Assembly: GCA_947306425.1 (NCBI GenBank)
Contig: CAMZGO010000002.1
Span: forward strand, 62,001 to 126,000
Origin: an uncultured Elusimicrobia bacterium
Lineage (GTDB): Bacteria > Elusimicrobiota > Elusimicrobia > Elusimicrobiales > Elusimicrobiaceae
Reading direction: 5' to 3'
DNA: 64,000 nucleotides
Part shown: positions 478-15,830 of the stretch, in pieces
Layout of the letters: each line of letters opens with the position of its first letter
Numbering within the stretch: position 1 is the first letter of the stretch
Notes under the pieces: model-generated
Told to the model about the DNA's origin: nothing
What the model saw: only the letters and a program-made list of their open reading frames with translations
The model's database searches: none
Made by a program: the position numbers and the translations under genes

Positions 478-1542
478 ATGCAGGGATATCTTACTACAAA
501 AGAAGCTGCCGCCAAGTGGCATATTTCACAAAGACGTGTATTAGTTTTTTGTCAAAATAATCGTATTCCCGAGCTGAATCGTATCGGTAATATGTGGCTT
601 ATTCCTTCCGAAACTCCCAAACCAAATGATAATCGCCATTTGCGTTATGTAGATAAAAGAAGTGTAGCAAAGCCATTCTTGAAGTGGGCAGGAGGTAAAA
701 CACAATTACTTTCTGATATCGACAAAAGAATTAGCAAATTAAATAGTTTCGAAAAATATGCAGAACCTTTCGTAGGTGGTGGCGCAGTTTTATTCCATGT
801 CCTAACTAATTACCCAATTAAACAAGCTTATATCAGCGATATTAATGAAGATTTGATTAATACTTATATAATTGTTAAAACACAAGTTGATAAATTAATA
901 AAAGAACTTATCAAAGTTCAAAATGAGTTTTTAAGAAGAAATGAATCTCAACGTAAAACCTATTATTATCAAAAACGAGAACTTTTTAATAAGTTAACAA
1001 CAAAACAACAGGCACAAAAAATAGAAAAAGCTGCTTTGTTTATATTTTTAAATCATACTTGCTTTAATGGTTTATATCGCGTGAATAGAAAAGGCGAATT
1101 TAATGTTCCTATGGGTGCATATAAAAATCCGCTTATTTGCGATGAAGACAATTTAAAGAAAGTATCTAAACTTTTACAGAAAGTTGAAATTGTATGTGCC
1201 GATTATAAGAAATCTATGGGATTTATTGATAATAAAACTATGGTCTATTTTGACCCCCCTTATCGCCCATTAACTCAAACATCTAGTTTCACTTCTTATA
1301 CGGCTGAAGAATTTGATGATGACGCTCAAATTGAACTGGCACACTATGTGGAAAAAGTTAATAGCAAACATGCAAAGGTTTTACTTAGCAACTCTGACCC
1401 TCACAATGTTAACCCAAAAGATTCCTTCTTTGACAAATTATATCGTGCTTTTAAGATAGAGAGGGTGCTTGCTTCCCGTATGATTAACTGCAAACAGACA
1501 TCTCGTGGAAAAATTAATGAACTTCTTATCGCAAATTTTTAG
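478..1542 (+). CDS. HTH-fused Dam-type adenine-N6 DNA methyltransferase (DpnM-like)
   Basis: 354 residues. Residues 1-50 form a MerR/excisionase-like helix-turn-helix (YLTTKEAAAKWHISQRRV followed by a MWLIPSE wing). From about residue 65 it is a D12-class alpha methyltransferase: FLKWAGGK SAM-binding motif (about 67-74), FVGGGAVLF (98-106) and the catalytic DPPY (about residue 258). It should methylate adenine in GATC, given the DpnII-like endonuclease 9 bp downstream. The HTH extension makes it much longer than DpnM (about 284 residues) and may let the enzyme repress its own promoter, as some other modification methyltransferases do. The same HTH type is fused to the Fic protein at 9641. Start has AGAGG upstream. 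Confidence 0.9.
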   Translation: MQGYLTTKEAAAKWHISQRRVLVFCQNNRIPELNRIGNMWLIPSETPKPNDNRHLRYVDKRSVAKPFLKWAGGKTQLLSDIDKRISKLNSFEKYAEPFVGGGAVLFHVLTNYPIKQAYISDINEDLINTYIIVKTQVDKLIKELIKVQNEFLRRNESQRKTYYYQKRELFNKLTTKQQAQKIEKAALFIFLNHTCFNGLYRVNRKGEFNVPMGAYKNPLICDEDNLKKVSKLLQKVEIVCADYKKSMGFIDNKTMVYFDPPYRPLTQTSSFTSYTAEEFDDDAQIELAHYVEKVNSKHAKVLLSNSDPHNVNPKDSFFDKLYRAFKIERVLASRMINCKQTSRGKINELLIANF

Positions 1543-1551
1543 GAGAAAAAT

Positions 1552-2427
1552 ATGACACGTAATTTTGAAAAATGGTTATCTAATTTTAAAACATCTATTG
1601 CTACTTATGACTATTACGTAGATTTTAATAAAGTATATGGCAATATTGATTCTATAAGAGTGGAATTGAATATCTTAAACGCACTTATTGGGCATAAGGA
1701 TATAAAAAATGAATTTATTAATTTAGTTAATAAGTATCCGGAAGTTCTAAAATGCATACCTTTACTACTTGCGATAAGAGGAAAAGAAGTAGCTATTACT
1801 GATGAGAATGGTTCGCGCATTTATCGTTTTGATAAAGTAGCAACAACTCCGGAAGAATATGCCAAATTTATGCAAAAATCGGGTTTATTTAACTTATTAC
1901 AAAATCATTTAATAAGTAACTTGCTAGATTATGCTACAGGAGTAGAAACTGGTCTGGATTCCAATGGGCGCAAAAATCGTGGCGGTCATCTTATGGAACA
2001 TGTAGTAGAATCATATTTACAAAAAGCAGGTATTACTAAAAAAGATGATAATGCTTCAAAAGCATATTATCCCGAAATGTATGTCAGCGAAATACAGCAA
2101 AAATGGAATATTGATTTATCTGCTATTTCTAATAAAGGAAAAACAGAAAAAAGATTTGATTTTATTGTAAAAACTCCAAAAATGATTTACGGTATAGAAA
2201 CTAATTTCTATTCCGGTGGCGGCTCAAAACTAAATGAAACTGCACGCAGTTATAAAACATTAGCATTGGAAGCCGCAGATATTCCTGGATTTACTTTCGT
2301 ATGGTTTACAGATGGCAAAGGCTGGGCATCTGCTAGGCATAATTTAGAAGAAACTTTTGATGTATTACCCCATATCTATAATATCAAAGATATGGAAGAC
2401 GGCATCATGGATACTCTGCTTAAATAA
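1552..2427 (+). CDS. DpnII-family type II restriction endonuclease (GATC)
   Basis: 291 residues, close to DpnII (288). The N-terminal part (FEKWLSNFKTSIATYDYYVDFNKVY) and the block GVETGLDSNGRKNRGGHLME then FDFIVKTPKMIYGIETNFYSGGGSKLNE carry the DpnII/MboI family signature, with candidate catalytic acid and lysine residues in the ExxF...GGGSK region. It cuts unmethylated GATC. AGGAG precedes the ATG, 9 bp after the methyltransferase stop, so the two are one transcript. The recognition site is inferred from the family, not from this sequence. Confidence 0.9.
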   Translation: MTRNFEKWLSNFKTSIATYDYYVDFNKVYGNIDSIRVELNILNALIGHKDIKNEFINLVNKYPEVLKCIPLLLAIRGKEVAITDENGSRIYRFDKVATTPEEYAKFMQKSGLFNLLQNHLISNLLDYATGVETGLDSNGRKNRGGHLMEHVVESYLQKAGITKKDDNASKAYYPEMYVSEIQQKWNIDLSAISNKGKTEKRFDFIVKTPKMIYGIETNFYSGGGSKLNETARSYKTLALEAADIPGFTFVWFTDGKGWASARHNLEETFDVLPHIYNIKDMEDGIMDTLLK

Positions 2428-2428
2428 T

Positions 2429-3172
2429 ATGGCTAAAAAGAAACAATTATTAGAACCTGAAGAATTTGAGTTGGAGACCAATACTGTATGGAGTTTCAAA
2501 AAACGAGGAGATTGGGCTACACACGACGGTAAATATCGAGGAAACTGGTCTCCTTTTATTCCAAGAAATATCATTCTACGTTATTCCAAACCGGGAGATT
2601 TAATTTTAGACCCATTTATCGGTAGCGGCACGACTTTGGTGGAAGCTAAACTATTAGGACGCAATGCTATTGGTATTGATATAAACCCTTCCGCGATTGA
2701 ATTAACCAAAAAACATCTTCAATTTAAGTGTGAAAATCCAGGTAAAATAGCAGTAAGAAAAGGGGATGCTAGGAATCTAAAAGGTGTATTGGATGAAAGT
2801 ATTGATTTGATTGCAGCGCACCCTCCTTATGCCGATATTATTCAATACAGTAAAGATATCGAAGGGGACTTATCACACTTTAAAATAAAAGATTTCTTAC
2901 TGGAAATTAAAAAAGTTGCTGATTCTTGCTTCCGTGTATTAAAAAAAGATAAGTTTTGTGCAATTCTTATAGGAGATACTCGCAAAAAAGGATGTGTAAT
3001 TCCTTTAGGATTCCAAGTAATGCAACAATTTTTAAATGCAGGATTTACACTAAAAGAAATCATTATTAAAGAACAACATAATTGTAAAGCAACAGGATAC
3101 TGGAAGACAAACAGCATTAAATATAACTTTTTATTACTTGCCCATGAGTATCTATTTGTGTTCAGGAAGTGA
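2429..3172 (+). CDS. Second DNA methyltransferase of the DpnII-type locus
   Basis: I place the start at ATG 2429, one base after the endonuclease stop (247 residues). The same frame stays open back to 2357 inside the endonuclease gene, which is an unlikely start. Motif I is LDPFIGSGTTLVEAKLLGR (about 60-80) and the catalytic motif is AHPPY (about 130), in the order seen in N4/N6 gamma-type enzymes or TRM11-like methylases; there is no large target-recognition domain between. The C-terminus (EQHNCKATGYWKTNS, AHEYLFVFRK) is typical of this family. In DpnII loci a second methyltransferase protects single-stranded or incoming DNA, but DpnA belongs to another motif order, so equivalence is only an analogy. 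It ends 2 bp before a convergent gene. Confidence 0.8.
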   Translation: MAKKKQLLEPEEFELETNTVWSFKKRGDWATHDGKYRGNWSPFIPRNIILRYSKPGDLILDPFIGSGTTLVEAKLLGRNAIGIDINPSAIELTKKHLQFKCENPGKIAVRKGDARNLKGVLDESIDLIAAHPPYADIIQYSKDIEGDLSHFKIKDFLLEIKKVADSCFRVLKKDKFCAILIGDTRKKGCVIPLGFQVMQQFLNAGFTLKEIIIKEQHNCKATGYWKTNSIKYNFLLLAHEYLFVFRK

Positions 3173-3174
3173 TT

Positions 3175-3705
3175 TTAGGGGCGAGGAATACCTAACCAAA
3201 GCATATCTCTACCGGAATAACTCCAATAGCGAATATCCTGTTCAATAAAAAGCCATTTAAGTGTTTTTACTATCAACTCTACTGAAAATCCATTTATAAA
3301 TTTAATAGAAGCATAGGATGATTCAGGTACATCATAGCAAGAATAAACTTTTTCTATAATGTCGTATAATTTCCGATACATTTGAGAATTAGAAGCTTTT
3401 TTCTGCCTTAAATCTTGAATAATATCTTCATGTTTAGGGTTATTTCGTCTTTTTTCAATAGCAGATGCAAAATTATAATTTTCTATACACACAATAAAAT
3501 CAAAACCATTGTGTAAATTGGCAGGTCTTCTCAAATATATTCGATTACCATCATTTAATGTTTCTACATAGTACGAGTATTTAGAGGCAAGATTTCCCTT
3601 TCCTTGTCCTGGAATTTCTTTAGCAAATGCGTTAACTAACCGCATTCGAACATCTTGACGAGTTCCTTGATTGCTAAATTGTTGAGTAATATTATATTCT
3701 GGCAT
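3175..3705 (-). CDS. Unknown protein, 176 aa, convergent with the R-M genes
   Basis: I do not recognise this family. The sequence is basic and soluble, with no signal peptide or membrane segment. Notable stretches are RMRLVNAFAKEIPGQGKG, RIYLRRPANLHNGFDFIVCIE and the terminal RYWSYSGRDMLWLGIPRP. The gene stops 2 bp from the stop of the second methyltransferase on the opposite strand and lies 52 bp downstream of the three-gene kinase operon that runs the same way, so it could be its fourth member or a free-standing R-M accessory. The FDFIVCIE segment resembles the acid-rich core strand of a nuclease fold but no complete PD-(D/E)XK motif is visible. Confidence 0.6.
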   Translation of the reverse strand: MPEYNITQQFSNQGTRQDVRMRLVNAFAKEIPGQGKGNLASKYSYYVETLNDGNRIYLRRPANLHNGFDFIVCIENYNFASAIEKRRNNPKHEDIIQDLRQKKASNSQMYRKLYDIIEKVYSCYDVPESSYASIKFINGFSVELIVKTLKWLFIEQDIRYWSYSGRDMLWLGIPRP

Positions 3706-3757: not shown

Positions 3758-4954
3758 TTATAAAGAATTCCATTCTTTCTCAGACACAAATCCTAAAGTT
3801 TCATTGTGAACAGAAATCGCAGCTTGCTGTGCATCCAAAACAGAGAGGAAATCTCTACCTTCACATCTAATAGATTTAGAGTTACAGGTGGTTAATATGT
3901 TCTTTGAATTTTGTAACATATCTACATAATTCTGCAAAGTAGATTTAAATCTAGATTTAACAAAATTTTCTGTTTGAATTTTAAGAGAACTTAAATAGTG
4001 TTTATGTGATAAAGTCTCTCCATAAGTAGAAGAAGAAGGTTTATCAGCTGCAAATAATACATCAGAATATGGATTCTTCGTAATTCCTTCATTCTGCAAT
4101 AATGAGAGTATTCCCTGTTGCCCTGCCAAATCCAAAAAAGGAACTTTATATTCAGAGAAAGTTTGAGGAGCATAATACCATATAGCACGTCTGCTTATTT
4201 CATCATCATCTTTAACTTCAAACCTATCTAACTTAAAACGACGTGTATTAAGAAAATTTCCTGATGCAATTGCATCACATTTAGCTAGGCCTACACAAAG
4301 CATTTGTTGATTAGAAAACCCTAATATAATCTTCTTATTTGTTCTTTTCAATCCTAATACCAATGACAACAAATTACGTATCCAAATAGGATTATCAACG
4401 AGATAGACATCATTAGGATGTTGACAAACAATATAAAAACCATAAATATTCCATTTTTCGGCATTAGAGATAATTGTTTCAATTTGTTCAGAATTAGATA
4501 TAACATCTGAAGAAATAGCCAATGTATGAAATATCTTATTAGACTGTATATAATTTAATGCAGAAGAAATAATTTGATGTTGCATTTTACTCCATCGTTC
4601 ATCAATTGTTAAATCAAAAAAAGCCGGAGTAATTACATATTTAGTATTTAAGCGTAAATTTAAATCTACTAGGGGTTTGATTACCATGTCCCATGACCCC
4701 TTTTCTAATAGTGTAACATTACCTTGTGGCCAATACTTATAATCGGATAACTTCTGTGGTCGTTCTCGTGGCAAATAAAGCTGGGGGTCAAAAAGGACTT
4801 CTCCACCATTTTTATGGACATGATTAGTAAAAGTCTCAATTTTATCAGCATCAATATTAATAGGACTTAAAATAACATTACCTTGTTTCCAATCATGCAA
4901 TAATTCTAAAATCATTTTTTGCATTCCATGTCCCATTTGAATATAAAATTCCAT
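3758..4954 (-). CDS. Predicted TIM-barrel protein of a kinase-linked operon (transglycosylase-like?)
   Basis: 398 residues. Visible blocks are YIQMGHGMQ at the N-terminus, LFDPQLYLPRERP (about 54-66), ITPAFFDLTIDERW (about 108-121), IILGFSNQQML (about 209-219) and CDAIASGNFLNTRRF (226-240). Alternating short hydrophobic strands ending in G/S/D-rich turns, and the late GFSNQQML...DAIASG pair, look like the C-terminal half of a TIM barrel such as tRNA-guanine-transglycosylase-like or luciferase-like enzymes. The exact family is not identifiable by eye. Third gene of a leftward operon behind the kinase (11 bp gap), with AGGAG before its ATG. The base composition is more AT-rich than the downstream core genes, consistent with transfer. 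The function is unknown; a base-exchange or nucleotide-modifying enzyme is one guess. Confidence 0.6.
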   Translation of the reverse strand: MEFYIQMGHGMQKMILELLHDWKQGNVILSPINIDADKIETFTNHVHKNGGEVLFDPQLYLPRERPQKLSDYKYWPQGNVTLLEKGSWDMVIKPLVDLNLRLNTKYVITPAFFDLTIDERWSKMQHQIISSALNYIQSNKIFHTLAISSDVISNSEQIETIISNAEKWNIYGFYIVCQHPNDVYLVDNPIWIRNLLSLVLGLKRTNKKIILGFSNQQMLCVGLAKCDAIASGNFLNTRRFKLDRFEVKDDDEISRRAIWYYAPQTFSEYKVPFLDLAGQQGILSLLQNEGITKNPYSDVLFAADKPSSSTYGETLSHKHYLSSLKIQTENFVKSRFKSTLQNYVDMLQNSKNILTTCNSKSIRCEGRDFLSVLDAQQAAISVHNETLGFVSEKEWNSL

Positions 4955-4965
4955 AACAAATACTC

Positions 4966-5811
4966 CTAAATCTCAATTTTTGTTTTTACAGTCTGCAACC
5001 ACTGCAAAGCTTGAATAGCATTTTTAGGTCTTTGAGAAGGATTTTTTTGTATCATTGATAAAATAAAAGAAGATAATTCCTTATCTTTATCCCCTGCTAT
5101 ATCCAAATGAGAAGGATATAGATTAGCTACATTCTGTAAAACTGTATTAGGATTATTAGAGGTAAGAAAAGGATTTTTTCCGGATAAACATTCATATACA
5201 ACTACTCCCAAAGAAAAAATATCAGCCCTCGAAGTAATATATTTTTTTAGATTATTAAATTGTTCAGGAGCAGCATAACCTGGTGTATGAGGACCAATAG
5301 GCGATTGAGTTTGTGTTATTGAGGACAAATTAAGAAAACGTGCTATTCCAAAATCAATGAAATATATATTACCATCGTCTCCCCAAATAATATTTTCTGG
5401 TTTAATATCTCTATGTATAATTCTATGTTCTTCTAATTTTTTAATAAAAATTAACCCTTTTTCTAATAAATGTAGTGCCTTTGCAGCAGACAATTTATGC
5501 TCTTTATCTAAGACCTCTCTTAATGAAACTCCTATAATTTTTTGTTCAACAACACATAATGTTGGTGTATTTTCATAAATAACGCTAAGTACTTTATGTA
5601 TATGTGGAACTTCTAACATCATTGTTTTTGAACCAATTGTAATTTCTCGTTCAGCTCTAACATCAGCTTGAAAATATAATTTAATAACTACTTCTCCATA
5701 TACGGGGTGATAAGCACTAAAAACTTGCTTTTGACCACCACGCTTCATTGGCAAACATTTTATATATTCTTTTTTAAATTCTTCAAAAGTTATTAAATTA
5801 GTATAAAGCAT
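4966..5811 (-). CDS. Bacterial serine/threonine protein kinase (Hanks type)
   Basis: About 281 residues from the ATG at 5811; the frame is open to 5862, which would overlap the upstream gene by 65 bp, so I prefer the shorter form overlapping by 14 bp. All catalytic elements are present: VVIKLYF (ATP-anchoring Lys), IIHRDIKPENI (HRD loop), FIDFGIAR (DFG) and GYAAPEQF (APE). It lacks a membrane segment and any sensor domain, ending soon after the kinase fold, so it is a soluble, probably active kinase. Sandwiched between a nuclease-like/winged-helix gene and a TIM-barrel gene in one operon, which suggests it phosphorylates one of these partners as a switch. That role is inference. Confidence 0.92.
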   Translation of the reverse strand: MLYTNLITFEEFKKEYIKCLPMKRGGQKQVFSAYHPVYGEVVIKLYFQADVRAEREITIGSKTMMLEVPHIHKVLSVIYENTPTLCVVEQKIIGVSLREVLDKEHKLSAAKALHLLEKGLIFIKKLEEHRIIHRDIKPENIIWGDDGNIYFIDFGIARFLNLSSITQTQSPIGPHTPGYAAPEQFNNLKKYITSRADIFSLGVVVYECLSGKNPFLTSNNPNTVLQNVANLYPSHLDIAGDKDKELSSFILSMIQKNPSQRPKNAIQALQWLQTVKTKIEI

Positions 5812-6517
5812 TCCCAATCCACTCATTAAATTGTAAAGAAATATAACTTGAAGGAAGCTCAAATTTTTGGGCCTCTAATATTTTTTTAAAAGGTTTATCT
5901 TTACAATATAAACCAATTCCACACCTTTTAAATTCTTCTAACATATTAAATGGAGTATTAATTGTATTACTTAGAGCATAAGACTGAGATGCAAACCACG
6001 TATTTATAAAAGACTGTTCCGCTACTCTTTTCATATTATTTAATTTTGCTTCTATTGAAATTAATTTCTTTATTCCATATATCTCTGAAAGTTTCGCAGG
6101 AATCCATTGTTTTTTTTCTCTAATTATCAATCCTGCGTCTAATAGTTTTTCCAATGATGTAATCGTTTGTTTTTCTGGTAATTTTAATAAATCAATAATC
6201 ATTTTCCCGCTAATTTTCTTTTTTACTTTAATAAATAAAAATAATTTTAAATCAGAAGTATTCAGTTCAACCCTATATTTATTCCATTTGTCAAATATTT
6301 TTGGGTTATATAAAGCAAAAACAATATCTGGAAAACCTGAAATGATATGAGGCTCTATAAATACTGCTAAACTATCTTGCACATTTTTTGACAGAAATTT
6401 ATCCACATAATAATCTATAAAATCTCGGACAAGCGCTGTCTCAGGACCACGTAAAATTTTTCTACAATGTAAATTAATCTTTGGAATATCTTCATTAAAG
6501 ATACGAACTCTTTTCAT
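5798..6517 (-). CDS. PD-(D/E)XK-like protein with inserted winged helix, first gene of kinase operon
   Basis: 239 residues. Residues 59-70 read ISGFPDIVFALY (P63-D64) and residues 153-164 read ISIEAKLNNMKR (E156-x-K158), followed by a conserved-looking Q168 in VAEQSF. PD...ExK...Q fits a PD-(D/E)XK nuclease core. Between these two motifs (about 82-145) lies a winged-helix-like segment (LKLFLFIKVKKKISGKMIIDLLKL then ITSLEKLLDAGLIIREKKQW, as in MarR/ArsR folds). A nuclease fold interrupted by a DNA-binding domain is my inference from motif spacing; a plain transcription regulator is the alternative. Promoter at 6524-6552 places transcription start at or next to the ATG, so its mRNA may be leaderless. 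Confidence 0.55.
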   Translation of the reverse strand: MKRVRIFNEDIPKINLHCRKILRGPETALVRDFIDYYVDKFLSKNVQDSLAVFIEPHIISGFPDIVFALYNPKIFDKWNKYRVELNTSDLKLFLFIKVKKKISGKMIIDLLKLPEKQTITSLEKLLDAGLIIREKKQWIPAKLSEIYGIKKLISIEAKLNNMKRVAEQSFINTWFASQSYALSNTINTPFNMLEEFKRCGIGLYCKDKPFKKILEAQKFELPSSYISLQFNEWIGNALY

Positions 6518-9640: not shown

Positions 9641-10531
9641 ATGAAATATCTTTCAGTAGCCCAAATTGCAAAAATGTGGAAACGCTCCGAGAGGAGTGTC
9701 CGCAATTATTGTGCTAACGGGCAAATACAAGGGGCCGTTTTAAGCGGCAAAACTTGGCAAATACCCGAAAATGCCACTAAACCGGAAAGAAGTAATAAAC
9801 ATAAAAATATCCCTACTACTTTATTTGAAATTATTAAAGCAGAAAAATCTTCCAAATTACATGGTGGAATATATCACAAAATACAGGTTGATTTAACTTA
9901 TAATTCTAACCATATCGAAGGCAGTAAATTAACGGAAGACCAAACACGCCTTATTTTTGAAACAAATACTCTTGGAGTTGAAAGTAACGGAGTCAAAATA
10001 GATGATGTTATCGAAACAGCGAATCACTTCAAGTGTATTGATATGATTATTGATAACGCCAATTGTAAAATAAGCGAAAGGTTTATAAAAGAACTGCATA
10101 AAACCCTAAAAAACGGAACTACCGATAGCCGTAAAGATTGGTTTACCGTAGGCGATTATAAAAAACTGCCAAATGAGGTTGGCGGACACGAAACAACAAA
10201 ACCCGAGCAGGTGGCAAAGGAAATAAGACATTTATTAAGCACTTATAACAACTTAGAAAACAAAACTTTTGACGACTTGCTTGATTTCCACCATAAGTTT
10301 GAGGCTATTCACCCTTTTCAAGACGGTAATGGCCGCATAGGCAGATTACTTCTATTCAAAGAATGCTTAAAAACCGGTATCGTGCCTTTCATAATTTCAG
10401 ATGACTTAAAAATGTTCTACTACAAGGGTTTACAAGAGTGGCCCAAAAACAAAGAACGTCTTAGAGATACTTGCTTAACCGCTCAAGATAGGTTTAAAAC
10501 TATTCTTGATTACTTCAAAATAAGATATTAA
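9641..10531 (+). CDS. HTH-fused Fic-domain protein (AMPylase, class II)
   Basis: 296 residues. Residues 1-50 are an HTH of the same type as in the Dam gene at 478 (YLSVAQIAKMWKRSERSVRNY, then TWQIPE). The Fic core carries HPFQDGNGRIGR (about 225-236), the complete catalytic loop HPFxxGNGRxxR, and upstream SNHIEG (about 88-93), which fits the autoinhibitory (S/T)xxxE(G/N) motif of class II Fic proteins. It is predicted to transfer AMP from ATP to a target protein, self-restrained by the inhibitory Glu. AAAGGGAG precedes the ATG. The promoter is overlapped by a 12-bp inverted repeat, consistent with autoregulation by the HTH. Confidence 0.92.
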   Translation: MKYLSVAQIAKMWKRSERSVRNYCANGQIQGAVLSGKTWQIPENATKPERSNKHKNIPTTLFEIIKAEKSSKLHGGIYHKIQVDLTYNSNHIEGSKLTEDQTRLIFETNTLGVESNGVKIDDVIETANHFKCIDMIIDNANCKISERFIKELHKTLKNGTTDSRKDWFTVGDYKKLPNEVGGHETTKPEQVAKEIRHLLSTYNNLENKTFDDLLDFHHKFEAIHPFQDGNGRIGRLLLFKECLKTGIVPFIISDDLKMFYYKGLQEWPKNKERLRDTCLTAQDRFKTILDYFKIRY

Positions 10532-11877: not shown

Positions 11878-13290
11878 TTAACTTCTTAAAATTGTACGCA
11901 TTTGCTCAATATTTTCTTCTAATTCTTTTTTAGAGTATGGTGAATTTAAAGTATTTTCCGGATGATGTATAGAGTTACGAATATAGCAAATCCGTGAACA
12001 TTGAATTTCTTGTCCATCGCGTGCATCTATCCATTCTGTATCTAAAGAGATACCTATTGCTTTTAATTTTTCATCCACAACCCTAGATTTTGATGTATCA
12101 AAGTGTTCCATTAGTTCCCCATATAATTCATTAAAATATTCCTCTGTTGCCAAATCAAATGCTAAGTAATTTATTTCATTCGCAGATATATAGGGTAATA
12201 CTCGCCAGGAATCATCAAAATTTATAAAATCTCCATCTTTACATTTGAAAATATGAGTATTAGCTTTAGTATATTGAAATATCTGTTTCAGCAATAATGG
12301 AGAATGTGTAGTAATAAAAACCTGTGATTTAGCAGATAATTCAAATAAAATTTTTACAAATTCTTCTTGAAGATGGGGATGTAAATGTAATTCAGGTTCA
12401 TCTATTAAAATAACAACTTCATTCTCATCTCTTTTTATATTTTCTAATAAATAAATTAAGGAAAACATCATTTCAAAACCACTTCCAATCTTATTAAGCG
12501 GTAAGAAAATATGAGAAGGCGTAGTATGGGCTAGAAAGGACTGATTAAAAGGTCTCATTGGGTCCATCAATTTTAGTTCTATATTTACCCCTGAGCATTC
12601 GCGGAATTTTTTAATAGCATTTCCAAGTATACGACAATCTAAATGTTGTTTTAATTCCGTTAACTTTTGCTCAATCAATTCTGTGGATATATCTTTTTGA
12701 ATAACCTGCCTATTAAGATCCTCCATAATTCGATCAAACTTAGTATCATTAAATGTTCCCGTCTTAATAGCATAGTTTCTATTTCTCTCTATATAAACCA
12801 ATTCAATATTATCAAATCTATTCCCTATCCAGGGATTTTTTACTGATACTCTTAAATCTACAGCTCCATCTTTAGGTTTATCTTCCCCATCAGCTTTTAT
12901 TACTTCTAAATCATGTACAAGCATAGAAGATAAATAATTTGTATTTCTTTCTCTTTCTTTAGCTGTAAACAAAAACCCCTTTCCTTTAAAAATTGTTTTA
13001 GGCATTACTCCTAAATATTCAAATGGTTTATCCGCAATGATTTCTATTTTAATTTCCTTGTTTGGTTGATTCAGATCAGAAATATTAACAGTATCTCCCT
13101 TGTACTCCGACATACAAAGAGACACGGCATCTAATATGGTAGTTTTTCCAGTACCATTCTCACCTACAAAAACATTTAATCCTGACCCATTTTCTTTAGT
13201 GGGAATATTGAGTCCTTCTAGTTGAAAAGGAGTTTGCTCTGAAAATGGATAAATTCTGAAATTATTAATCTTTATCTTTTTAATAAACAT
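11878..13290 (-). CDS. AAA/ABC-type ATPase (RecF/OLD-like) with C-terminal HEPN-like motif
   Basis: 470 residues. N-terminal KIKINNFRIYPF and Walker A GENGTGKTT (43-51), later VVILIDEPELHLHP (Walker B with signature, about 305-318) and FITTHSP (switch His) show an SMC/RecF-type ATPase of the AAA_15/21 group. The last 60 residues leave the ATPase fold and contain CYIRNSIHHPEN (about 430-441), where R-N-S-I-H-H fits the RNase motif Rx4H of HEPN domains, followed by a helical end. An ATPase that controls an attached RNase is a common toxin design, so I infer an abortive-infection effector. The HEPN assignment rests on one short motif. Confidence 0.75.
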   Translation of the reverse strand: MFIKKIKINNFRIYPFSEQTPFQLEGLNIPTKENGSGLNVFVGENGTGKTTILDAVSLCMSEYKGDTVNISDLNQPNKEIKIEIIADKPFEYLGVMPKTIFKGKGFLFTAKERERNTNYLSSMLVHDLEVIKADGEDKPKDGAVDLRVSVKNPWIGNRFDNIELVYIERNRNYAIKTGTFNDTKFDRIMEDLNRQVIQKDISTELIEQKLTELKQHLDCRILGNAIKKFRECSGVNIELKLMDPMRPFNQSFLAHTTPSHIFLPLNKIGSGFEMMFSLIYLLENIKRDENEVVILIDEPELHLHPHLQEEFVKILFELSAKSQVFITTHSPLLLKQIFQYTKANTHIFKCKDGDFINFDDSWRVLPYISANEINYLAFDLATEEYFNELYGELMEHFDTSKSRVVDEKLKAIGISLDTEWIDARDGQEIQCSRICYIRNSIHHPENTLNSPYSKKELEENIEQMRTILRS

Positions 13291-13328
13291 TTTATTATAG
13301 TTCCTGTATTCTTTTCTTTAAAGTTATT

Positions 13329-13904
13329 TCATTTATCTCCAAATATTGATAAAATTAAACTAATTGTCTCGTTGTTTGATTTTTCAAGTTTTTCTTTGGG
13401 TAAATTTTTCTTATAAAATTCTTTTTCCTTATCAAGATCGCCGCCACATTTTGTATGGCCGTCAAATGCATTTTTGTATTTCTTTGTGTCAGCTGTTTTA
13501 TCAAGATGAATATTAAATAAAGACAGAATTAAACCTTCAAAGGCCCGTGGATTAGAAACAATCAATATTGGATTTCTATTGTCTTTATTATATGTCTTTT
13601 GTAAATCCTTATCCGAAACTGATGCATCAAACTTTTGTCTCCAACACTCTTCTAAACTTCTTCTAACTTCAGAGGATAATTTTACATCTTCATCAAACCA
13701 AGCAAAAGATTTATCATAACTAGACTTCCTTATAGCTCTTTCTACAATACTATCAGAATCTCCGCCGAACTTTCTCTCTACCGTTATATGACTTGTTTCA
13801 GGATTGTAGAAAAGGTCACATAGGTAATCAAAAAAAGCGAGTTCTCTTTTACCCTCAAGAGAAACGGAAACTGTTGTCTTTACTTTCCGATGTTTTTTTA
13901 CCAT
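13329..13904 (-). CDS. RloB / AbiLii-like protein
   Basis: 191 residues. It opens with VSLEGKRELAFFDYLCDLF, the V-E-G-x-x-E-x-x-Y/F motif of the Toprim-like RloB family, followed by ERKFGGDSDSIVERA and AWFDEDVK, the acidic core seen in RloB. Start overlaps the RloA-like stop (TAATG), which indicates translational coupling. RloB-like proteins partner AAA_15 ATPases in RloAB/AbiL systems and are presumed nucleases or effectors. The Toprim acidic residues appear intact. Function in this organism is inferred from the pair. Confidence 0.85.
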   Translation of the reverse strand: MVKKHRKVKTTVSVSLEGKRELAFFDYLCDLFYNPETSHITVERKFGGDSDSIVERAIRKSSYDKSFAWFDEDVKLSSEVRRSLEECWRQKFDASVSDKDLQKTYNKDNRNPILIVSNPRAFEGLILSLFNIHLDKTADTKKYKNAFDGHTKCGGDLDKEKEFYKKNLPKEKLEKSNNETISLILSIFGDK

Positions 13905-15127
13905 TATATTCTCCTAATATTTCCAATAGCACCATATGCTCCGGCTAGATATTTATTGCAGAAATTATCATCATTGCGAACTCCTTCGACATCATCGAGC
14001 CTATATATTTCAGAAGATAATTCTTCATTCTTTTCTACTAAGTATATCTGGGTTTTATTTCTGTCCTCCAAAAGTAACGGTATGTGTGTTGAAAATATGA
14101 TTTGGGCATGTTTTTGATTATTTGAATCATCTGCAAATAATTTAATTAATTCGCGAATTACCATAGGGTGAATACTTGTTTCAATTTCATCACTTACTAA
14201 AATGCCGCCTTTTTCCAAAGTTTGAAAAATTCTATCTAATAATAGCAACATTCTTTGGGTACCATTGGATTCATTAAAGAAATCTAGATCAAAAGTACTT
14301 TCACCGCTGGAATGTTTGAAAATAATATTCTTTACTTGTCTTACATCGCCGTGGTTAGTAACATTGGTAAACGGAACATACTCGTCCTTGTCGACGATAT
14401 CTTCTATACTAAAATCCATTCTTCTTAAGAATTTAAGTATTTTAGAAAATCTCTCTGAATTTTTATCTATAGTATTTCTTAATTGAAGGAATATTTGTGT
14501 TGAATCTTGCATGCTTTTACCTAAAAAACCTAAATTAGATTCAAATTTAGTTAATTCTGTTAAACCGAACTCCGGAAGATGCCCTGTATTCTGTAAAAAA
14601 GAGAATAAAGATATATTTTTACGCATTGCAAAACGATCCTTGTCTCCCTTATTCAACATAGGCAAATTAAAGTGCATAAAATTATCTTCTGTCTCTGTCC
14701 TTTTTAATTCATAAACGACTGAATATCCGCGTTGCTTCTTTTCTCCTAAGAATTCATACTGCACCCCCTTACGGGATATATCTAACTTGTACTGAAACTC
14801 TCTATTGTTATTTTCAAATATCATTTCAAATGATGAAATATCACTTTTAGATAACTTATGAGGCATTACACCCAAAATAGAAACTTTCCCATTGGGTAAC
14901 ATTTCATAAGAATTTTTTACAAACCATAAACAAAAAGACAAAGCTTTTAATACATTTGTTTTACCAGAAGCATTATGACCAACAATTGCAATTGTATTAT
15001 TTAATAAATTACCACATTCAGATAAAAATGAAGAATCATCCTTTTTATCCTTTTTGGTTATGCTAAAAGATATCTCTTGCTCTTCTTTTATGCTATAAAA
15101 ATTTTTAACCTTAAAATTTATTATCAT
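13904..15127 (-). CDS. RloA / AbiLi-like AAA_15 ATPase, head of five-gene operon
   Basis: 407 residues from ATG 15127, chosen because GGAGG lies 8 nt upstream; the ATG at 15142 would place that SD inside the gene. N-terminal INFKVKNFYSIKEEQEISF is the typical AAA_15 opening. Walker A is GHNASGKTN, and GILVSDEIETSIHP with IIFSTHIP gives Walker B and the switch His. The gene pair RloA-RloB corresponds to AbiL/RloAB abortive-infection systems. Here the pair is followed by a second ATPase and two membrane proteins, an arrangement I do not know as a described type. Promoter at 15152-15180. Confidence 0.88.
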   Translation of the reverse strand: MIINFKVKNFYSIKEEQEISFSITKKDKKDDSSFLSECGNLLNNTIAIVGHNASGKTNVLKALSFCLWFVKNSYEMLPNGKVSILGVMPHKLSKSDISSFEMIFENNNREFQYKLDISRKGVQYEFLGEKKQRGYSVVYELKRTETEDNFMHFNLPMLNKGDKDRFAMRKNISLFSFLQNTGHLPEFGLTELTKFESNLGFLGKSMQDSTQIFLQLRNTIDKNSERFSKILKFLRRMDFSIEDIVDKDEYVPFTNVTNHGDVRQVKNIIFKHSSGESTFDLDFFNESNGTQRMLLLLDRIFQTLEKGGILVSDEIETSIHPMVIRELIKLFADDSNNQKHAQIIFSTHIPLLLEDRNKTQIYLVEKNEELSSEIYRLDDVEGVRNDDNFCNKYLAGAYGAIGNIRRI

Positions 15128-15151
15128 TTCATTTTCCTCCATTTATAAGAA

Positions 15152-15180: not shown

Positions 15181-15830
15181 GTTAACACCCGATTTCTAAT
15201 ATGTTTTATTGATTTTTTTAAGTTTAATAAGTTTAATTTTTTTGAAAATTCTAATTAAATATTAGAAACAATAGCACTAAACGAATTCCAATTTATATGG
15301 ATTTGAAAAAGTAAAACATTATAAACTAATCTTTTATGCCTGTTTTTGACAATCTTAGACGAAAAATATCACAAATTCAGTACTTTTTGTATGAAAAAAG
15401 AGACGTGTATTCGTCTAAGACTCCGTCGGTGTATTCGAGAATAACCTATAAATCGAACAGTTGATCATAAATATAGCTTAAAAAATTTTTTTCAAAACAA
15501 AAAAGTTCCCATTTTTCCAGCACTTTTTGTATAAAAAATTAGCGTTTTCTTTGTCTAAACCACCGTCGGTAGATTCATTGTGACATATAAATAGAACAAT
15601 TGATCATAAATATAGCTTAAAAAATTTTTTTCAAAACAAAAAAGTTCCCATTTTTCCAGCACTTTTTGTATAAGAATAGTGTCCTGTCTTCAGGAGAAGA
15701 TTGTCGTGAACACAGCCGTGTTAGGCGCACCATTCGACCATAAGCCATTCTCATACGAGAGTGACCTTTTCCTTATACTTTTTCAACCGTAAGGGTAAAT
15801 ATAAAATGCTATAATAAATAAAGAACTTTT
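15181..15830. repeat. Tandem-repeat region, about 139-bp period, at edge of defence operon
   Basis: Gene-free. A 75-bp block is repeated perfectly at 15461-15535 and 15600-15674 (offset 139). A shorter box CCGTCGGT recurs at 15423 and 15563, and the end motif CAGCACTTTTTGTATA recurs at 15518 and 15657, with a degenerate copy at 15378 and another copy at 10723. The 15378 copy sits inside a 10-bp inverted repeat CTTAGACGAA/TTCGTCTAAG (15354-15363, 15410-15419). Further right (15675-15780) are short hairpins such as TCCTG-TCTT-CAGGA and AACAC-AGCC-GTGTT, then a TATAAT for the next gene. Possible recombination, replication or RNA-level role; no family recognised. Confidence 0.75.

Follow-up and report, generated by a model that had tools for sequence, protein, structure and literature searches.

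Three reverse-strand genes in the window (the whole 64,000-nucleotide stretch analyzed here, from an uncultured Elusimicrobia bacterium) form a genuine conserved operon, far beyond what chance would produce. They encode a nuclease-like protein, a Ser/Thr protein kinase and a TIM-barrel protein, and the same trio recurs in bacteria, haloarchaea, plasmids and viral contigs. We propose, with a probability of about 0.5, that the operon is a mobile anti-invader module of three genes: the barrel protein would sense, the kinase would relay the signal and the nuclease would cut DNA.

A conserved three-gene operon

The operon is read leftward, in the 5'-to-3' order nuclease, kinase, barrel (Table 1). 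It had been described from the letters alone as a set of overlapping or 11-bp-spaced genes, and the open reading frames agree with that description. The kinase and barrel genes are separated by exactly 11 bp, with a Shine-Dalgarno-like TAGGAG at the barrel gene start, and the overlap between nuclease and kinase genes measures about 14 nt if the kinase starts at ATG and 65 nt if it starts at TTG. The ATG is the likelier start, as it gives the better fit to the homologues.

Only the barrel protein or its alignments served as queries for homologous loci, and the kinase and nuclease neighbors therefore provide an independent test of the association. The 33 loci come from Elusimicrobiota, Spirochaetota, Bacillota, Myxococcota, Pseudomonadota, Acidobacteriota, Armatimonadetes, haloarchaea, plasmids and four viral contigs. 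The complete trio was present in all of the first 20 loci (the window, Elusimicrobia genome G013, a Polaromonas plasmid, viral contigs L006-L008, genomes L009-L018 and four more genomes of the Halobellus phylum). Among 12 further barrel matches from the phylum samples, the kinase was adjacent in 10 and the nuclease in 10, plus one (L074) in which the nuclease gene is cut by the contig end; the remaining matches are L077, which lies at a contig edge and lacks the kinase side, and L079, a fragment of the barrel. The fourth viral contig (L084) also carries the trio. Overall, the kinase adjoins the barrel in 31/31 testable loci and the nuclease is adjacent in 32/32. Homologues of the three genes are thus neighbors elsewhere as well, a point that the sequence-only reading had left to a search across genomes.

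Kinase and barrel genes are always consecutive and on the same strand, while the nuclease gene leads the operon in 26 loci and closes it in 6. The distances among the three proteins are correlated (Mantel r of 0.76-0.88, 0/5000 permutations), a correlation to which shared locus ancestry contributes. In one locus (L076) the barrel gene is broken to 147 aa and the kinase and nuclease ORFs are intact, a natural partial loss of the barrel.

Table 1. Positions of the operon genes, their motifs and other features in the window and in homologous loci.
Feature	Sequence	Position	Strand	Remark
Gene 1, PD-(D/E)XK nuclease-like protein with inserted winged helix, 239 aa	window	5798..6517	(-)	
Winged-helix insert, residues about 76-148, between the D64 strand and the E156/K158 strand	window	6074..6292	(-)	DSSP of model
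Nuclease catalytic motif E-A-K (E156-x-K158)	window	6044..6052	(-)	invariant in 30/30 homologues
Gene 2, Ser/Thr protein kinase, 298 aa from TTG	window	4966..5862	(-)	probable start ATG at 5811
Kinase HRD	window	5407-5415		
Kinase DFG	window	5347-5355		
Kinase APE	window	5263-5271		
Gene 3, TIM-barrel protein, TGT-like fold, new family, 398 aa	window	3758..4954	(-)	
Barrel D56, DPQ motif at strand 3 end	window	4787..4789	(-)	invariant in 30/30
Barrel A230-S-G...N-x-R238 after strand 8, site of TGT nucleophile Asp	window	4241..4267	(-)	hhalign register
DpnII-type R-M genes	window	478-3172		
ORF, 176 aa	window	3175-3705		opposite strand, after R-M
Fic protein gene	window	9641-10531		
AAA ATPase and RloB-looking genes	window	11878-15142		
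94-nt direct repeats	window	15444-15537 and 15583-15676		
Broken barrel gene	L076	5766-6209		
Operon among phage head genes	L008	4688-7155		
Metallophosphoesterase gene	L016	7207-7896		
Metallophosphoesterase gene	L017	7210-7896		
Metallophosphoesterase gene	L052	3613-4299		
PP2C-like phosphatase gene	L084	4990-5733		opposite to operon

Carriers among the sampled species number 3/341 in Elusimicrobiota, 5/247 in the Halobellus phylum, 10/398 in Bacillota and 4/237 in Myxococcota; the single carrier in the Pseudomonadota sample (1/398) is the seed itself. Seed genomes included, the operon occurs in about 0.3-2.5% of sampled species per phylum. It is rare and patchy and has clearly been moved horizontally. 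The window copy is nearest to Spirochaetales copies (49, 48 and 47% for the three proteins) and Enterococcus copies, compared with 15, 25 and 21% for the three proteins of the other copy in its own family. As all three proteins share these nearest relatives and are far from the own-family copy, they were transferred as a unit. GC content is 29-35% in the operon stretch of the window and 36-41% downstream. Neither a tRNA nor flanking att-like repeats were found. The margin of the GC-poor region in the window holds an AT-rich segment with no long ORF, and in it lies a pair of 94-nt direct repeats that share 96% identity and are spaced 139 nt apart.

Predicted activities of the three proteins

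The product of gene 1 looks like an active PD-(D/E)XK nuclease. Its AlphaFold model (11 homologues in the input; mean pLDDT of 92.6, pTM of 0.90) contains, according to DSSP, a helix (26-44), two strands (49-54 and 65-70) and a winged-helix block (80-140), followed by a strand (149-157), a helix (162-174) and a strand (178-183). This order is that of the PD-(D/E)XK alpha-beta-beta-beta-alpha-beta core with D and ExK, and the core residues in the model are E26, E55, D64, E156-x-K158 and Q168. E156, K158 and Q168 are conserved in 30/30 homologues and D64 in 28/29, compared with only 24/30 for S224. The PD and ExK motifs were originally read as flanking a winged-helix-like insert, and the model has the same arrangement. 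The insert matched HTH domains of the Lrs14/ArsR/MarR type and is missing from five short homologues (L005, L008, L055, L075 and L076), and this absence shows the winged helix to be an insertion into the nuclease core. No model in Pfam, NCBIfam, PHROGs or PADLOC covers the nuclease. Resemblance to winged-helix regulators was confined to its middle, PADLOC matched only the wHTH parts of CARF/Csa3/CasR models, and a PDB sequence search returned HTH matches only.

The kinase likewise looks active from its conserved residues. It is a bare, stand-alone Hanks-type domain without a sensor domain (Pfam Pkinase, 5.3e-32) and has all the marks of that type (Lys, C-helix Glu, HRDxKPxN, DFG and APE), including the three motifs that the sequence-only reading had called complete. 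K61, E73, D152, N157, D170 and T183, the last being the activation-loop Thr, are invariant in 30/30 homologues, and K154 is present in 29/30. PADLOC matches to PD-T4-6 (1.6e-42) and MAD6 (2e-42) barely exceed that to the housekeeping-type PknB model (5.9e-39). These matches are therefore generic and assign the kinase to neither the PD-T4-6 nor the MAD6 system.

The third protein had been called TIM-barrel-like, and its AlphaFold model (15 homologues in the input; mean pLDDT of 90.7, pTM of 0.91) indeed consists of eight beta-alpha units in a (beta/alpha)8 barrel, with a helical C-terminal part. The best fold match in the PDB was archaeosine TGT (1j2b; E of 6e-5, TM of 0.47; other listed matches at or below 0.36), and the best in a viral library was a putative queuine tRNA-ribosyltransferase (E of 1.7e-5, TM of 0.43). 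A designed TIM barrel reached a Foldseek E-value nearly equal to that of the TGT match. When 30 barrels were aligned with 15 trimmed TGTs by hhalign, a weak match was obtained (P of 0.012; controls, 0.38-0.39), running from before strand 4 to strand 8 and placing A230 on the TGT nucleophile Asp. With small TGT sets, hhalign scored the barrel no better than the DHOD control, and no significant sequence match to Pfam TGT was observed.

In TGT, the DSGGF motif supplies an Asp where strand 3 ends, and the nucleophile Asp follows strand 8. By strand order, barrel D56 would be the counterpart of the DSGGF Asp, and D56-P57 is present in 30/30 homologues. The nucleophile Asp was found at the A230 position in 0/30 homologues, which have A, S, C, G, T or E there, and the CxCxxC zinc motif is absent in 29/30 barrels, compared with its presence in 10/15 of the reference TGT stretches aligned. 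As the nucleophile has been lost and the zinc site is missing, base exchange by the barrel is unlikely. We conclude from the model and the alignments that the barrel probably has a TGT-like fold and not TGT chemistry. The best explanation is that it has kept the predicted pocket (Q6, S30, D56, Y174, N236 and R238) and lost the transglycosylase nucleophile. The earlier suggestion of a transglycosylase-like barrel that modifies nucleobases thus held at the level of the fold and was not supported for modification, against which it also counts that the Enterococcus isolate and three draft/MAG carriers have no clear QueC. Altogether, a clear QueC was present in 8/13 carriers and missing in G341, G342, G345, G346 and G349 (most of them draft or MAG). 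The barrel has no family model in Pfam, NCBIfam (June 2026) or PADLOC (15 members in the PADLOC search), a PDB sequence search gave nothing credible, and one family member had a weak PHROG match.

Neighborhoods and comparison with known systems

The window operon lies in a dense defense neighborhood, as first proposed. Nearby are a complete DpnII-type R-M system (Dam-like MTase, DpnII-like REase and a second MTase), a Fic protein in the same GC-poor stretch (PADLOC PDC-S04, 1e-107) and two AAA ATPases (one AbiLi-like, 4e-73) flanking an RloB-looking 191-aa protein, and the operon region also carries an integrase. The 176-aa ORF next to the R-M genes was considered as a fourth member and rejected, as it is absent from the other loci and has a homologue on a Leuconostoc plasmid near a DNA adenine methylase.

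Copies of the operon often lie beside defense or mobile genes. Known or candidate defense neighbors are found in seven loci, as counted from the neighbor listing. AbiE lies 19 bp upstream of the operon in L012, an HsdR gene overlaps gene 1 in L015, HsdRMS is beside the operon in L018 and PDC-S28 in L010, L052 has an Mrr-like PDC-S02 match, and a C5 methyltransferase is some 3 kb from the operon in L057. On viral contig L008 the operon sits between phage head-morphogenesis and head-protease/major head genes, like a cargo cassette. The neighborhoods and the thin distribution fit a mobile defense module. In three haloarchaeal loci a metallophosphoesterase gene, recognized by motif and not by HMM, follows the barrel gene within 25 bp or overlaps it; its product is possibly an opposing phosphatase or an accessory protein. 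A PP2C-like protein phosphatase gene, recognized by eye, ends beside the operon on viral contig L084.

The gene set had not been matched to a described system, and this still applies. No PADLOC system had all of its core genes matched, no name was found in Pfam or NCBIfam (June 2026), and the set is not described in the open-licence published papers searched. The comparison also returned no plain metabolic family for the barrel. The gene set could be placed in none of the named systems compared; it is built from known folds, and its function is a prediction.

PD-T4-6 is a single gene and MADS is a larger methylation-linked operon. PD-T4-6, MAD6 of MADS and Stk2 likewise are Hanks-type Ser/Thr kinases found with defense genes, but PD-T4-6 and MADS lack the nuclease and the barrel of the operon, and the HMM match is generic. 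Card1/Can2 and VC1899 (CARF-wHTH-PD-(D/E)XK) combine a wHTH with a PD-(D/E)XK nuclease and gave weak fold matches. In contrast to them, the operon nuclease has no CARF domain and no CRISPR link was seen, and its wHTH lies inside the nuclease core. The BREX PglW and DndF NERD modules also couple a nuclease of the PD-(D/E)XK clan to an active Ser/Thr kinase, with a wHTH in PglW. However, the operon encodes three separate small proteins, with no ATPase and with a TGT-like barrel in addition, whereas the PglW/DndF domains are fused with pseudokinase and ATPase/sensor domains (PMC12839542).

DpdA is a TGT homologue that exchanges a base in host DNA in Dpd systems (PMC12839542). The barrel resembles DpdA/TGT in its (beta/alpha)8 fold, its best PDB and viral fold matches and the Asp at the end of strand 3, but differs in having no nucleophile Asp after strand 8 and CxCxxC in only 1/30 members. 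No dpdB- or dpdC-like partners were recognized by eye in the neighborhoods listed. Two operon-bearing genomes of the Halobellus phylum (L048 and L049) encode TGT paralogues of 344-382 aa, DpdA-type-like, apart from the operon. The TGT-containing BRC system was rejected as a match, being centered on HerA/PglZ, and its listed components include no such kinase (PMC12839542).

Proposed function and alternatives

For this unit, whose conservation was observed directly, we infer a defensive role, a phosphorylation target and a direction of signaling. The most likely sensor would be the barrel, which would gate the kinase on binding a base, a nucleotide or a nucleic-acid feature that belongs to the invader. 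The kinase may act as a switch or relay, most simply by phosphorylating the nuclease, which might turn it either on or off, and the nuclease would be the DNA-cleaving effector, reaching DNA through its inserted winged helix. As the kinase has no sensor domain, either the barrel or the winged helix would have to do the sensing. Neither a methyltransferase nor an ATPase motor is part of the unit, and thus self-marking or translocation is not evident. More tentatively, the barrel could be a repurposed TGT fold that reads a nucleobase or nucleotide feature (e.g., a modified base) of invading DNA and signals by phosphorylation to the nuclease, in bacteria and archaea alike, which would make the operon a hitherto undescribed class of immune system.

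The main rival, which we consider rather unlikely, is that the kinase serves as an antitoxin: it would phosphorylate and silence the nuclease in normal cells, and infection or loss of the operon would release the nuclease, with cell death or retention of the mobile element as the outcome. The same logic operates in a kinase-antitoxin TA locus in which TakA silences TglT (PMC7205606), where a Ser/Thr kinase gene likewise stands beside the gene of a potentially toxic enzyme, and the compact overlapping genes and carriage on plasmids and phages would suit it. However, the kinase and enzyme belong to other families, the operon kinase being Hanks-type and TakA being described as an atypical kinase (PMC7205606), and a two-part TA system leaves no role for the barrel, which every locus carries as a third gene. 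It is improbable that the kinase is instead a toxic effector, phosphorylating host proteins in a Stk2-like abortive infection with nuclease and barrel as invader sensors. Lone kinases of this type are defense genes, as in the PADLOC matches to PD-T4-6 and MAD6, but those matches are generic, and the retention of the nuclease catalytic residues in 30/30 homologues is unexpected of a mere sensor.

A Dpd-like modification-restriction system appears less probable again. The barrel would then exchange a host DNA base as a self-mark, the nuclease would cut unmarked DNA and the kinase would only regulate, for which the TGT-like fold and the DpdA precedent (PMC12839542) can be cited. The missing nucleophile and zinc motif, together with the lack of DpdB/DpdC-like partners recognizable by eye, argue against such an activity, as does, more weakly, the patchy occurrence of QueC, since uptake of the base from outside is possible. 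Least probable is a function other than defense, as a cassette with a selfish or regulatory role in mobile elements, e.g., in superinfection control or in the element's own DNA processing. Occurrence on plasmids, on phages and in integrase-bearing regions is consistent with such a cassette, but chromosomal copies also occur, and in many phyla the operon adjoins R-M/Abi genes with no element in common.

The anti-invader module that we favor is small and its operon compact, which makes it directly testable. Although found on both sides of the divide between bacteria and archaea, the gene set is without a name. If it does serve in defense, a minimal circuit of three proteins would link sensing to DNA cleavage directly through protein phosphorylation, and the TGT fold would gain a role other than base exchange.
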